Part shown: piece after piece, positions 29,468 to 32,758 of the stretch
How positions within the stretch are numbered: the first letter of the stretch is position 1
Layout of the letters: every line of letters begins with the position of its first letter
Origin: an uncultured Geobacter sp.
GTDB lineage: Bacteria; Desulfobacterota; Desulfuromonadia; Geobacterales; CAIOGM01
DNA length: 32,758 nucleotides
Direction of reading: 5' to 3'
NCBI GenBank assembly: GCA_903857795.1
Contig: CAIOGM010000107.1
Coordinates: 1 to 32,758 of the forward strand
Program-made: the position numbers and the translations under genes
Notes under the pieces: model-generated
What the model was told of the DNA's origin: nothing
Database searches by the model: none
The model's input: the letters and a program-made list of their open reading frames with translations, nothing else

Positions 29468-29476
29468 GGGGAAAGG

Positions 29477-29743
29477 TTATCGGTAGACTTCGCGGCGGTT
29501 GCCGATCTTTATGACCAGGATGGTTATGGTGGCGTCTTGAATGTTGCAGATGATGCGGCAGTCGCCGACACGGTATTTCCAATAGTCGCCAAGGGGGCCG
29601 CTTAAGGTTTCCCCGATACAGCGCGGGTTTTCCAGTGTGGCTACCCGCTCCTCCAGGAACCGCGTGACTCGGATTCTGACTGGAGTGTCCAGACGTTTGA
29701 GCTGCTTCTCGGTATCACTTTGGTAGTTAATTTGCCAGGTCAA
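29477..29743 (-). CDS. RelE/ParE-type toxin, module A
   Basis: 88 residues with the family pattern: N-terminal KQLKRLD helix region, YWKYRVGDCRIICNI core strands and GNRREVYR ending. Such proteins are usually ribosome-dependent mRNA interferases (RelE) or gyrase inhibitors (ParE); the YRVGDYR core and R-x-VYR end favour the RelE side. It starts at TTG, overlapping the antitoxin stop by 17 bases, with GGAT seven bases upstream. It is roughly half identical to the module B toxin. Confidence 0.88.
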   Translation of the reverse strand: MTWQINYQSDTEKQLKRLDTPVRIRVTRFLEERVATLENPRCIGETLSGPLGDYWKYRVGDCRIICNIQDATITILVIKIGNRREVYR

Positions 29744-29954
29744 GGCGGCGATCCATTTCGGCAGAACTGATCACCTGCGACTTACCTGACTTGATGTCTG
29801 CCATGGCGGATACTGCGTCACGATAATCTTCCAGATCCTCCAGGTAGCGGTCAAGCGCTTCCCTTACCAAGGCGCTGCGACTCTTTCCCAGGTTTTTTGA
29901 TTCAAACTTCAGGTGCTCTTCAAGCCAGGGATCATTTATTTTAACTGCCAGCAT
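29727..29954 (-). CDS. Ribbon-helix-helix antitoxin, module A
   Basis: 75 residues from an ATG preceded by GAGGAGA. The N-terminus MLAVKINDPWLEEHL followed by GKSRSALVREALDRYL is a CopG/RelB-like ribbon-helix-helix DNA-binding fold; the C-terminal tail should wrap the toxin. It would repress its own operon. The gene ends inside the toxin start. Upstream is the DUF1640-like gene in the same direction, 71 bp away. Confidence 0.85.
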   Translation of the reverse strand: MLAVKINDPWLEEHLKFESKNLGKSRSALVREALDRYLEDLEDYRDAVSAMADIKSGKSQVISSAEMDRRLDLAN

Positions 29955-30025
29955 GGTTGCTCTCCTCTCTTCTCTGCTCTGCAGAGTATGACGATGTTGC
30001 GCCTTTTGTCCATGGAGGGGAGGGG

Positions 30026-30307
30026 TTATTTCGCCAGTCGCAGCATGAGCGCAACAATTACCCCGGTCTGCATGAAGATTAGCCCGACAACCCACTTGAT
30101 GATCTCTGCTTTGGCCTCGGCAAGGCGGGCATCAAGACGTAGCTCCGATTCCTTAACATCGCCCTTGGTGGCAAGGTCCCGATAATCAAACGCGGCTTGC
30201 AATGATTCCTGTTGAGCCATGGCCAGGGCTTCAGCTTGTTTCTCGGGGATACCTGATGCTTCCAGCGTCTTGATGAACTTGTGCGTGTCAAACGTCATTG
30301 TTGCCAT
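30026..30307 (-). CDS. DUF1640-like coiled-coil membrane protein, module A (full length)
   Basis: 93 residues. The N-terminal TFDTHKFIKTLEASGIPEKQ and ATKGDVKESELRLDARLAEA segments predict helices with coiled-coil character. A C-terminal membrane helix (about 71-88, VVGLIFMQTGVIVALML) would leave most of the protein in the cytoplasm. The layout matches the bacterial DUF1640/CCDC90-like group; its function is unknown. CAGGAGCG precedes the ATG. It is first in the transcription unit followed by antitoxin A and toxin A. Confidence 0.8.
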   Translation of the reverse strand: MATMTFDTHKFIKTLEASGIPEKQAEALAMAQQESLQAAFDYRDLATKGDVKESELRLDARLAEAKAEIIKWVVGLIFMQTGVIVALMLRLAK

Positions 30308-30461
30308 GGTTCGCTCCTGTCTGCTACTGGAGGGGAGGGATTATTTTTTGGCGCCGACTCGGTCCAACATCTCTGTTAACGTATCGATCATTCAAACGCG
30401 AACGAACGTAACACGAAAGGAGGTGGTTAGAAAGTGGGAATCGACCTGACAGCAACGAAAC
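30303..30461 (-). repeat. 159-bp leader repeat, copy A
   Basis: Matches 31408-31566 at all but three positions (offset 1,105 bp). On the minus strand it is the upstream leader of the DUF1640-like gene and ends at its start codon. It probably carries the module promoter, though I could not name a clear -35/-10. On the plus strand it carries AAAGGAGGTG followed by a GTG start and a short open frame. Confidence 0.92.
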
Positions 30462-30620
30462 ATTCACTCAACCGATTAGCGATAATCTTCAGCTAGCGTT
30501 TGCACCGACCCGTAGGAGCGTCCTTTAGGCGCGAATTCGCAACATCATTCGCGGCCGTAGGCCGCTCCTACAACTGTCTTCTTTTTACTTACTTACTGGT
30601 TGAATATCATCGCTAATCAG
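30462..30620. mobile_element. REP-hairpin insertion element with inverted ends
   Basis: A segment of about 159 bp that interrupts copy A of the leader: the sequence on its two sides (up to 30461, and from 30622) is contiguous in copy B at 31566-31568. Near its ends are inverted GATTAGCGATRATMTTCA motifs (30474-30491 and 30601-30618, 16 of 18 matching). It encodes no protein. Deletion from copy B is the alternative explanation. Confidence 0.65.
30512..30571. repeat. REP-type hairpin pair
   Basis: GTAGGAGCG (30512) to CGCTCCTAC (30571) are reverse complements, with inner CGCGAAT/ATTCGCG pairs around AACATC. This GTAGGAGCGGCC...GCGAAT type is a widespread bacterial interspersed palindrome (general knowledge). 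It lies at the centre of the insertion element. Confidence 0.75.
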
Positions 30621-30686
30621 GTTAACTCGTGGCTACAGGTAGAACAATCATTTGGTTTGCCTGCCCTGTAACATGCTCTGTTATTG

Positions 30687-30956
30687 CTATCGGTAGACTT
30701 CACGGCGGTTGCCGATTTCTACAACCACTATCGTCACAATATCGTCATGGATGGCGCATATAAGGCGGTAGTCGCCGACGCGATACCGCCAGTATGCTCC
30801 GAGTCGTGGCCCGATCAACGGCTTGCCAAGTGTGCGGGGATTTTCAGAACACGCCAATCGTTCCCTGAGGTAGGTGATAATTCGCTTCTGATTTTGTCGG
30901 TCCAAGCTGGCAAGTTGCTTCTTGGTGGATTCTGGCAGTTCAATTCGCCAGGCCAA
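30687..30956 (-). CDS. RelE/ParE-type toxin, module B
   Basis: 89 residues from a TTG start overlapping the antitoxin stop by 17 bases, with GGAG seven bases upstream. A longer frame reaching 31124 is antisense/other-frame read-through of the antitoxin gene. Core YWRYRVGDYRLICAI and ending GNRREVYR mirror the module A toxin. Toxin family and likely activity are as for module A, with residues different enough that cross-neutralisation is uncertain. Confidence 0.88.
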   Translation of the reverse strand: MAWRIELPESTKKQLASLDRQNQKRIITYLRERLACSENPRTLGKPLIGPRLGAYWRYRVGDYRLICAIHDDIVTIVVVEIGNRREVYR

Positions 30957-31167
30957 GTTCCCGCTCCACTTCTTCAAGGGTATAGGTTTTTTCCTTACCG
31001 GAATGAATATCGGCCATGCGCCGGTCACACTCCTCAAAGAGTTCCCAGTCATGCAAAACGTTGTTGACCAATTCATGCACAAAGGCAGTTCGGCTTTTGC
31101 CTTGCTGTTTGGCAAACTTGGCAAGGCGTCTTTCTGCGGTGCTATCTAATTTTATGGCGTGCAACAT
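30940..31167 (-). CDS. Ribbon-helix-helix antitoxin, module B
   Basis: 75 residues, identical in length to antitoxin A, from an ATG preceded by AAGGAGGAGAACAAA. MLHAIKLDSTAERRL then GKSRTAFVHELVNNVL gives the ribbon-helix-helix region; the shared elements with antitoxin A are mainly GKSR, MADI-SGK and the L-LAN end. The pair has clearly diverged, so this is not a recent duplicate of the protein-coding part. Confidence 0.85.
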   Translation of the reverse strand: MLHAIKLDSTAERRLAKFAKQQGKSRTAFVHELVNNVLHDWELFEECDRRMADIHSGKEKTYTLEEVERELGLAN

Positions 31168-31226
31168 TTTGTTCTCCTCCTTAATGTCGGCTTTGGTGGC
31201 GAGATCTTTCATTAGGTCCTCGCGCA

Positions 31227-31412
31227 TCACGCGAAGAACGTCTTGAGCACCAGAGCAACAACTCCGGCCAGAACTGTACCCATCATCCATTTTACGACAG
31301 CAAGCTCTATTTCCATCTTGCGTAGATCTTCTTTCGAGGCAAATGCCTTTAAGTCAGATCTCAGCAGAGCAATATCCCCCTTCGTGGCCAGATCCCGGTA
31401 ATCAAATGCCAT
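31227..31412 (-). CDS. DUF1640-like membrane protein, module B (N-terminally shortened)
   Basis: 61 residues. It begins MAFDYRDLATKGD, which lines up with residues 38-50 of the module A protein; the first 37 or so residues are absent while the start codon and CAGGAGCG site are kept. A helix follows, and a C-terminal membrane segment (about 39-58, VKWMMGTVLAGVVALVLKTF). It is either a functional short form or a decayed gene. It lies 59 bp upstream of antitoxin B in the same direction. Confidence 0.7.
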   Translation of the reverse strand: MAFDYRDLATKGDIALLRSDLKAFASKEDLRKMEIELAVVKWMMGTVLAGVVALVLKTFFA

Positions 31413-31566
31413 GGTTCGCTCCTGTCTGCTACTGGAGGGGAGGGATTATTTTTTTGCGCTGACTCGGTCCAACATCTCTGTTAACGTATCGATCATTCAA
31501 ACGCGAACGAACGTAACACGAAAGGAGGTGGTTAGAAAGTGGAAATCGACCTGACAGCAACGAAAC
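31408..31566 (-). repeat. 159-bp leader repeat, copy B
   Basis: Near-identical to 30303-30461 (three differences). Here it continues directly into a 29-bp stretch (31568-31596) that in copy A lies beyond the insertion element (30622-30650, two differences), so the true repeat unit is about 188 bp. Confidence 0.92.
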
Positions 31567-31668
31567 CTTAACTCATGGCCACAGGTAGAACAATCAACTG
31601 GTAGCAGGTTTGAGAGACTCTGCAGAGGTGGGTAACAGGGGAGGGGTGGGGCATACTGTTCACCGTGT

Positions 31669-31882
31669 GTGGTACAGTTACGGGAACACCTGGAAAACCA
31701 CCTGAAAGGGCTGTTTGAGGAAAAGAAAAAGCGCCCTGTCTACAATGAGATAGGACGCTTCTTTCGTTTAAATGGTGCCGAAGGCGAGACTCCGAGACAA
31801 GAATCTTGTAACCTGCTGAATCTACAGCTAAAATTGCTTCGTCGCTTCGTCCTCAAATCACCTTGATTTGTAGTGAAACTGT
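31669..31882. repeat. 214-bp segment bounded by 11-bp inverted repeats
   Basis: GTGGTACAGTT (31669-31679) and AACTGTACCAC (31872-31882) are perfect inverted repeats. Between them is an open frame of 65 codons (31669-31866) with a charged helical start, not recognised. The layout suggests a transposon-end pair or miniature element; no clear target-site duplication was found. Confidence is for the repeat, not for mobility. Confidence 0.5.
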
Positions 31883-31921
31883 ACCACTTTCAGTCTCAAA
31901 CAACAAGGCTTTATTCGTTAA

Positions 31922-31949
31922 GTATATAATCTCTAAGGGGATTATATAC
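31922..31949. repeat. AT-rich palindrome
   Basis: Perfect 10-bp arms GTATATAATC/GATTATATAC with an 8-nt centre, in the AT-rich stretch upstream of the replication-like gene. It could be an operator, terminator or origin hairpin. Confidence 0.5.
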
Positions 31950-32002
31950 CTTACTGTTTCGTATCCTCGCAGTAACTCCGTATGTTCCCCTCTTGCTTCC
32001 TC

Positions 32003-32022
32003 AGGTGCGACAAGTCGCACCT
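32003..32022. repeat. GC-rich palindrome upstream of the replication-like gene
   Basis: AGGTGCGACAAGTCGCACCT is a perfect 20-bp palindrome apart from the central AA. The rest of 31883-32185 shows a direct repeat of AACTAATTTC (around 32070-32095) and no other gene. Confidence 0.5.
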
Positions 32023-32185
32023 CCCCGAACTCCTACCCACTCCCCTTCCTTTAAAATTACTACAGCCCCGAACAACTAATTTCGAACTAATTTCAAGTTG
32101 GCTGACAGTTGAGTAATAAATTATAGCCTCAAAGTACAGAAAGTAGTTTGAGGGTAATTATTCTCTAAGCGACAAGGAGCATAAC

Positions 32186-32683
32186 ATGAACGTATCAGTA
32201 GGAGTAGACAAGCTTCACTTCACAATTCCATCGACCTACAGCCTTGATGAGATAGTCAACGGCCTTCCCGGATGGAACACACAACCTCTATTCCCCGGTA
32301 TAACCGCAGACATGTTTGAAGAGTCTTCACCAGAGAACCGAAAGCGATCCTGGTACAGGAAGCACTTCTATCTCAGAAGCGAATTAGGAGCCGTTTTAGT
32401 TGGAATCCATATGGACTCTGTATCCAAGTACGGCAAGAGAAATATGGTTCAGATAAACGGACTTGCGTTTTCTGAGAGCGCATTGAATCCTCTACGTAAG
32501 ATTGATCTTCAGTACCTTGCCCAGCGTATAACTGACCTTGAAGGAAAGATAACTGCTGTCGATACCTTTCTTGACGTAATTAGTCCGGCTGTACCTTTCG
32601 CTGAAATAGCTAGGCAGAGTCTAGCCCCGTCGCTGTTTCGAGTGGGTAGTTCACCAAATGGGGCGTCTCTGCGAGCGTTTTGA
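32186..32683 (+). CDS. Possible phage/plasmid replication initiator, N-terminal fragment
   Basis: 165 residues from an ATG with AAGGAG upstream. VGVDKLHFTIPSTYS at the start, MVQINGLAFSE in the middle and LEGKITAVDTFLDVI near residue 135 follow the order of conserved blocks in replication initiators of filamentous phages and small rolling-circle replicons (opening strand, Q-x-NG strand, IT-x-VD-x2-LD strand). Those proteins are usually 300 residues or more. Here the frame stops at 32683 just after base composition shifts to GC-rich near 32635, so it looks truncated by recombination. AT content and codon use differ from the core genes. The family call is tentative. Confidence 0.4.
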   Translation: MNVSVGVDKLHFTIPSTYSLDEIVNGLPGWNTQPLFPGITADMFEESSPENRKRSWYRKHFYLRSELGAVLVGIHMDSVSKYGKRNMVQINGLAFSESALNPLRKIDLQYLAQRITDLEGKITAVDTFLDVISPAVPFAEIARQSLAPSLFRVGSSPNGASLRAF

Positions 32684-32758
32684 CCACAGCATGAAGTCTG
32701 TCCACAGAGGGGTGAGCTTTGCCGGGGTGAGCGGCGTCCCCCCTCAACGCATGTGAAC

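Follow-up and report, generated by a model that had tools for sequence, protein, structure and literature searches.

What kind of replicon, if any, does the incomplete gene at the end of this contig belong to? The window, meaning the whole stretch of DNA analysed here, covers all 32758 bp of contig C107, from a genome of 4.05 Mb in 179 contigs, and the original prediction, made from its sequence alone, placed at its end the edge of a cut or recombined inovirus- or plasmid-like remnant with a truncated replication-initiator gene. The change in base composition on which this was partly based is real, but it does not start after 31883 as had been proposed. GC content drops earlier, from 0.609 (1-29467) to 0.505 (29468-31772) and then to 0.434 (31793-32615), before it reaches 0.607 (32624-32758), and the true edge is a 20-bp att repeat at 31773-31792. 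This repeat, the left edge of the element, duplicates the 3' end of tRNA-Leu(gag): it matches exactly C75:59691-59710, the final 20 bp of an intact gene for this tRNA on contig C75. The two att copies are oriented as expected for opposite ends of one element, and the element part on C75 has a similarly low GC content (0.426).

The same tRNA-Leu is found beside the same upstream genes in three genomes of the same genus, and terminator-like hairpins were seen by eye 3' of tRNA-Leu in same-genus genomes. In one of the three, G138, a 41-bp alignment (80%) runs about 21 bp beyond the repeat into the flank of the window, which weakly supports the flank being the former downstream region of the tRNA gene. 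The toxin modules next to the predicted remnant lie outside the att repeat, in the flanking chromosome. There, positions 29477-31290 (flank GC 0.505) hold two genes for ParE-type toxins; the antitoxin-like genes next to them match RHH_1 and Unstab_antitox slightly below the cut-off in both cases. An ORF for a CCDC90-like coiled-coil protein is also present there. The second toxin module is bracketed by stretches that look similar by eye (30619-30655 and 31569-31605; AACTCRTGGCYACAGGTAGAACAATCA), possibly the scar of a module duplication.

Inside the edge, both of the palindromes that had been pointed out are present. One, a 10-bp stem with an 8-nt loop at 31922-31949, is a candidate origin or regulatory site; the other is an 8-bp stem with a 4-nt loop at 32003-32022, with the 12-mer GCGACAAGTCGC at its core. 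When 31793-32185 was shuffled 1000 times with dinucleotides preserved, 4 shuffles had a stem of at least 10 bp and 0 had such a stem together with a second hairpin of at least 8 bp; the pair is thus rarer than expected by chance. The 12-mer has two matches in the whole genome, both within the element (the window palindrome and C75:64628-64639), compared with one for the reversed control pattern. Closer to the gene, a short hairpin (32127-32153, plus strand) contains a weak match to a motif from the upstream regions of related rep genes and is a candidate double-strand origin or promoter. Across 18 upstream regions of 400 bp, this 22-bp motif scored 327 bits in total, as against 227-239 bits in 12 shuffled sets, a signal that partly reflects shared descent because some of the regions come from close relatives. 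It exceeded 17 bits in 12 of the 18 sequences, and the best site in the window, 32132-32153 within the hairpin, scored 14.6 bits. The motif could represent either a promoter or an origin.

The gene itself proved to be a replication-initiator gene interrupted by an insertion sequence (IS). Its 165-codon ORF (32186-32683) consists of about 146 rep codons (32186-32623, plus strand), which match full-length relatives in both profile and single-protein searches and form the 5' part of a Rep_trans initiator gene, covering two of its three positions for metal ligands, and of 20 IS-derived residues from 32624 onwards. Repeat matches place the left end of an ISL3-type IS at 32624-32758, where the contig ends 135 bp into the insertion. 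The GC rise near 32635, soon after which the frame had been noted to end, is explained by the start of the insertion sequence at this point, and the IS also supplies the last 20 codons and the stop. The 8 bp before it (32616-32623, AGAGTCTA) are a target-site duplication, as the same 8 bp are found at the other end of the insertion (C75:66089-66096). The remaining part of rep lies at C75:65690-66118 on the minus strand, and when read over the empty site, rep is an open frame of 281 aa whose junction aligns with seven relatives (QSLP.NY). The truncated initiator gene of the original prediction is therefore a Rep_trans rep interrupted by an ISL3-type IS.

On C75, the other insertion end encodes the C-terminal 41 residues of a transposase (DDE_Tnp_ISL3, E 7.4e-5, 23.1 bits with a cut-off of 23), and the terminal inverted repeats at the two ends differ at 3 of their first 26 bases. 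An 8-bp target duplication is usual for the ISL3 family. The insertion resembles members of this family in its duplication, in its near-identical 26-bp ends and in the C-terminus of its transposase. Unlike them, it has an unassembled interior and a transposase known from the C-terminus alone; a search of the whole genome for a full ISL3 transposase returned only the 41-residue fragment. As the IS interior is missing from the assembly, no continuous sequence links C107 to C75, and the evidence that they are joined comes from the duplication, the reading frame and the att repeats. The IS-end DNA of the window is also found at C120:27838-27974 (100%) and C123:70831-70958 (99%), near contig ends. 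Elsewhere in the same genome, IS-like ends of about 30 bp were observed facing each other, 308 bp apart, at C110:28613-28920 (L005, L006), and also at C103:4439-4470 (L004); the facing ends are possibly a miniature (MITE-like) derivative.

The identity of the Rep protein was established through its relatives. The window fragment alone had no significant match in Pfam or PHROGs (TelA at E 0.28 is noise) and none in 50,697 phage records or in plasmid records, and as a single query the window protein matched nothing in IMG/VR or in GTDB contigs. Within the class, a single protein retrieved full-length relatives from 11 of 277 genomes, the source genome included, and a 10-row profile retrieved relatives from 38. 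A profile of closer relatives (alignment A2) had no match in IMG/VR and matched four loci in GTDB contigs; named relatives are from Geomonas oryzae S43 (locus L050), Geomonas sp. Red32, Geomonas propionica Red259 and a Geobacter sp. MAG. In a phylum-wide sample, the same profile found 4/395 genomes, all from the order of the host. A profile search against initiator families had been suggested as a check; the fragment, as mentioned, matched none, and all ten full-length relatives matched Rep_trans (PF02486), eight of them over the cut-off of 29.6 bits (L026 and L028 scored 28.1 and 21.6). The 10-row profile matched the solved structure of RepSTK1 (4cij; E 3.6e-18). When a relative was modelled with AlphaFold2 (mean pLDDT 79.6), the predicted structure matched 4cij at E 4.4e-16 (TM 0.66) and RepDE at E 6e-8. 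TATA-binding proteins also appeared among the structural matches, at E 5e-5 and weaker; the sheet of RepDE is compared with that of TBP in an excerpt of PMC4797284. Against 72,556 plasmid records, a relative gave weak matches, the best at E 5e-5 over 36% of the query.

We assigned roles to the active-site residues from excerpts of PMC4797284. The catalytic Tyr and all three acidic metal ligands are present across the two halves of rep, with both Asp ligands encoded in the window and the Tyr, the neighbouring Lys and the third-ligand Glu encoded on C75. As these fall on opposite sides of the insertion, the active site is split. Among 17 relatives, the Tyr and the third-ligand Glu are found in all 17, the first Asp in 12 (His in 5), the second Asp in 14 (His in 3), and the Lys near the Tyr in 13 (Arg in 4). 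Two residues before the Tyr there is a Cys here, and an Arg in just 1/17 relatives (Rep proteins of L022-L031, L083-L088 and C75 were compared). This Arg (R177 in RepSTK1, R189 in RepD) is described in the excerpts as important for activity and not strictly defining (PMC4797284), and since it is replaced, the activity of this Rep cannot simply be assumed. MobT relaxases of Firmicutes have the same Tyr and acidic ligands (PMC6499999, in part).

The rest of the element lies on C75, giving a length of about 7.2 kb from the coordinates, counting a single att copy and leaving out the insertion. From rep to the tRNA gene, it has ORFs of 195, 103, 72, 131 and 236 aa, followed by a 243-aa tyrosine recombinase (Phage_integrase) and a 568-aa tyrosine integrase (DUF6538 and Phage_integrase). 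The latter has an open frame and ends the series 102 bp from the tRNA-Leu gene, so that the integrase to be looked for beyond the window was indeed found, in a tRNA-proximal position. The 131- and 236-aa ORFs are lipoprotein-like by eye, and the 236-aa protein is 61% identical to a protein near a Rep_trans gene in G160; this lipoprotein-like cargo is common to L034:14613-15320 and L085:3309-3908, elements from two families of the order. By eye, the pattern of the 195-aa second gene resembles that of the second genes of relatives. The 103-aa ORF has two Cys pairs, and its likeness to the CxxC ORFs of relatives is unproven (best iterative match E 0.044). A Pfam scan of seven C75 proteins of the element or insertion detected no coupling-protein domain, and no origin of transfer was identified in the element. 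The term remnant used in the original prediction thus suits rep, which is broken, and does not suit the integrase and the other genes of the element, which are still open.

We consider it likely that the last ~1 kb of the window is the end of a ~7.2-kb integrated rolling-circle element of mobilizable type, with a rep disabled by the IS. The recombined plasmid-like element that had been suspected is borne out by the tRNA-derived att repeat, the integrase and the IS-split Rep_trans rep. The element lies between the two 20-bp att copies, with the integrase beside the tRNA and rep near the distal att site. In the past, the integrase would have recombined the two att copies and excised a circle, and Rep, with its catalytic Tyr and three acidic ligands, would have nicked an origin close to rep and driven rolling-circle replication. 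By analogy with a Firmicutes Rep_trans element, Rep was probably also the relaxase for mobilization by a helper, and the second recombinase may have resolved multimers. Because two metal ligands are now encoded on one side of the insertion and the Tyr and the third ligand on the other, replication and mobilization by the element's own Rep should be lost. The element might still be able to excise.

Two other accounts concern the status of the locus. The element could be a non-mobile remnant, a chance fragment of a plasmid or phage that has no function and no defined element around it, as the broken rep and the foreign composition would suggest. We give this little credence, as the matched 20-bp ends at a tRNA gene, the open 568-aa integrase adjacent to it and the occurrence of relatives with the same kinds of genes in several genera all argue against it. 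Alternatively, the appearance of a split gene could be an assembly artefact, in which contigs that have nothing to do with each other share a repeat at their ends; the window is indeed a whole contig, and at least two further contigs carry its end repeat at their own ends. Those two, C120 and C123, run on into different DNA, however, and what C75 supplies is precisely the stretch of the protein that the window lacks, in the correct frame, together with an identical 8-bp duplication and the corresponding att end; an artefact is therefore very improbable.

The remaining alternative is that the element is a filamentous phage of the inovirus type or depends on such a phage as its satellite; ssDNA made by Rep would then be packaged by Zot-type machinery, its own or that of a helper. 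Filamentous-phage satellites without coat genes are known. Zot is found in 10 of 23 further genomes of the order with more distant Reps, and eight of these (G206, G247, G249, G255, G257, G258, G269, G270) have it on the rep strand and no more than 10 kb from rep; these eight loci are probable inoviruses. In addition, an excerpt of PMC4797284 counts the CTX-phi replication protein, from a filamentous phage, among the Rep_trans members. Against this, a search for Zot (PF05707), which covered the source genome and 33 others, gave 0 matches and 0 candidates in the source genome, where a Zot-like gene beyond the window had been the thing to look for, and among the 11 genomes with close relatives (source included) only G194 has Zot, on a different contig. 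In trees (three rows with duplicates were dropped beforehand, and two rows, L073 and L078, are short), six of the eight Zot-linked Reps were included, and a single 15-row clade (100/99 and 99/99) contains all six. The window and C75 halves of rep, placed separately, both fall instead in a 7-row clade (100/100) with no Zot-linked member. Significant PHROGs matches of 10 element proteins were to integrases only, with none to structural proteins, although small coat proteins are easily missed, and a relative of the Rep matched the phage records, from which the window Rep is absent, at E 0.07 or weaker. On the basis of the Zot searches and trees, we rejected an inovirus for this element, contrary to that part of the original prediction, and consider the whole phage-or-satellite reading unlikely.

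A mobilizable-type integrated element also fits within a wider set of loci in the order. A relative of the 568-aa integrase is found at 9/16 relative loci searched, one of them partial. Four integrase-bearing or tRNA-linked layouts have tRNA genes beside them: L034 (Leu) and L039, L040 and L045 (all Arg-ccg). At L045, an exact 20-bp repeat of the tRNA-Arg 3' end is located 6.2 kb away, and rep lies inward of this far repeat by ~410 bp, matching the arrangement in the window; at L039 and L040, the repeats are imperfect only. In L042, L044, L047 and L048, halves of comM (Mg-chelatase-like), cut at about the same place, adjoin rep. The ends of the L048 element bear inverted CAAGACCCAATT / AATTGGGTCT, and a direct repeat flanking this comM-inserted element was sought and not found. 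One idea is that an element could guard against its own removal by disrupting a gene for transformation. The source genome has a second Rep_trans locus (G000:C35, L083:8662-13786), with rep, a small CxxC-type ORF, a lipoprotein-like gene, a serine resolvase and a DUF6538 integrase. An ordinary chromosomal gene, the other identity considered for the truncated ORF, was rejected in view of this truncation and of relatives that adjoin integrases or lie inside comM.

In literature of partial coverage, we found no description of such elements in the order of the host. We tentatively propose, as a possibility that we would not yet favor, that they represent an undescribed family of integrating elements of ~6-8 kb in one Gram-negative order, of which the window would hold a broken member, with a Rep_trans protein whose active site is altered by the lack of the Arg before the Tyr and with entry at tRNA genes or comM. 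Such elements might spread via hijacked conjugative or filamentous-phage machinery and would correspond, in this Gram-negative order, to the mobilizable elements with Rep_trans proteins in Firmicutes, the group for which Rep_trans relaxases on integrative elements are described (PMC7563843, PMC5704250; excerpts of both). Related initiators on small tRNA-integrated elements of a Gram-negative order would widen the range of the Rep_trans mobility strategy and would supply a defined set of intact relatives for testing. For annotators, the orphan rep fragment at this contig end is best read as an insertion-split mobile element and not as phage.

Among known systems, the pT181-type plasmids (RepC, RepD) and pSTK1 of Geobacillus (RepSTK1) share the initiator fold and the active-site positions; they are free plasmids, whereas the element here is tRNA-integrated and has integrases. 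CTX-phi-type inoviruses share the initiator superfamily, and related Reps lie near Zot in the eight genomes of the host's order, but the source genome is without Zot and its Rep falls in a different clade. A close parallel is with the small integrative mobilizable elements (IMEs) of Firmicutes that use Rep_trans relaxases of MobT type. In the excerpts available, a Rep_trans relaxase is shown to mobilize such an IME in Streptococcus (PMC7563843), and MobT of Tn916 and ICEBs1 also initiates rolling-circle replication of the excised element (PMC5704250). Many Rep_trans IMEs, though not all, have a coupling protein. The element described here differs from these in belonging to a Gram-negative order, in being known from sequence, with neither coupling protein nor oriT identified, and in its IS-broken rep, the replaced Arg before the Tyr and the presence of a second recombinase. 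Like these IMEs, of which the streptococcal IME_oriT is an example, it is small, integrated and bounded by direct repeats, and it combines a site-specific integrase and varied cargo with a Rep_trans protein that has the catalytic Tyr and acidic ligands (PMC7563843, PMC5704250; in part).
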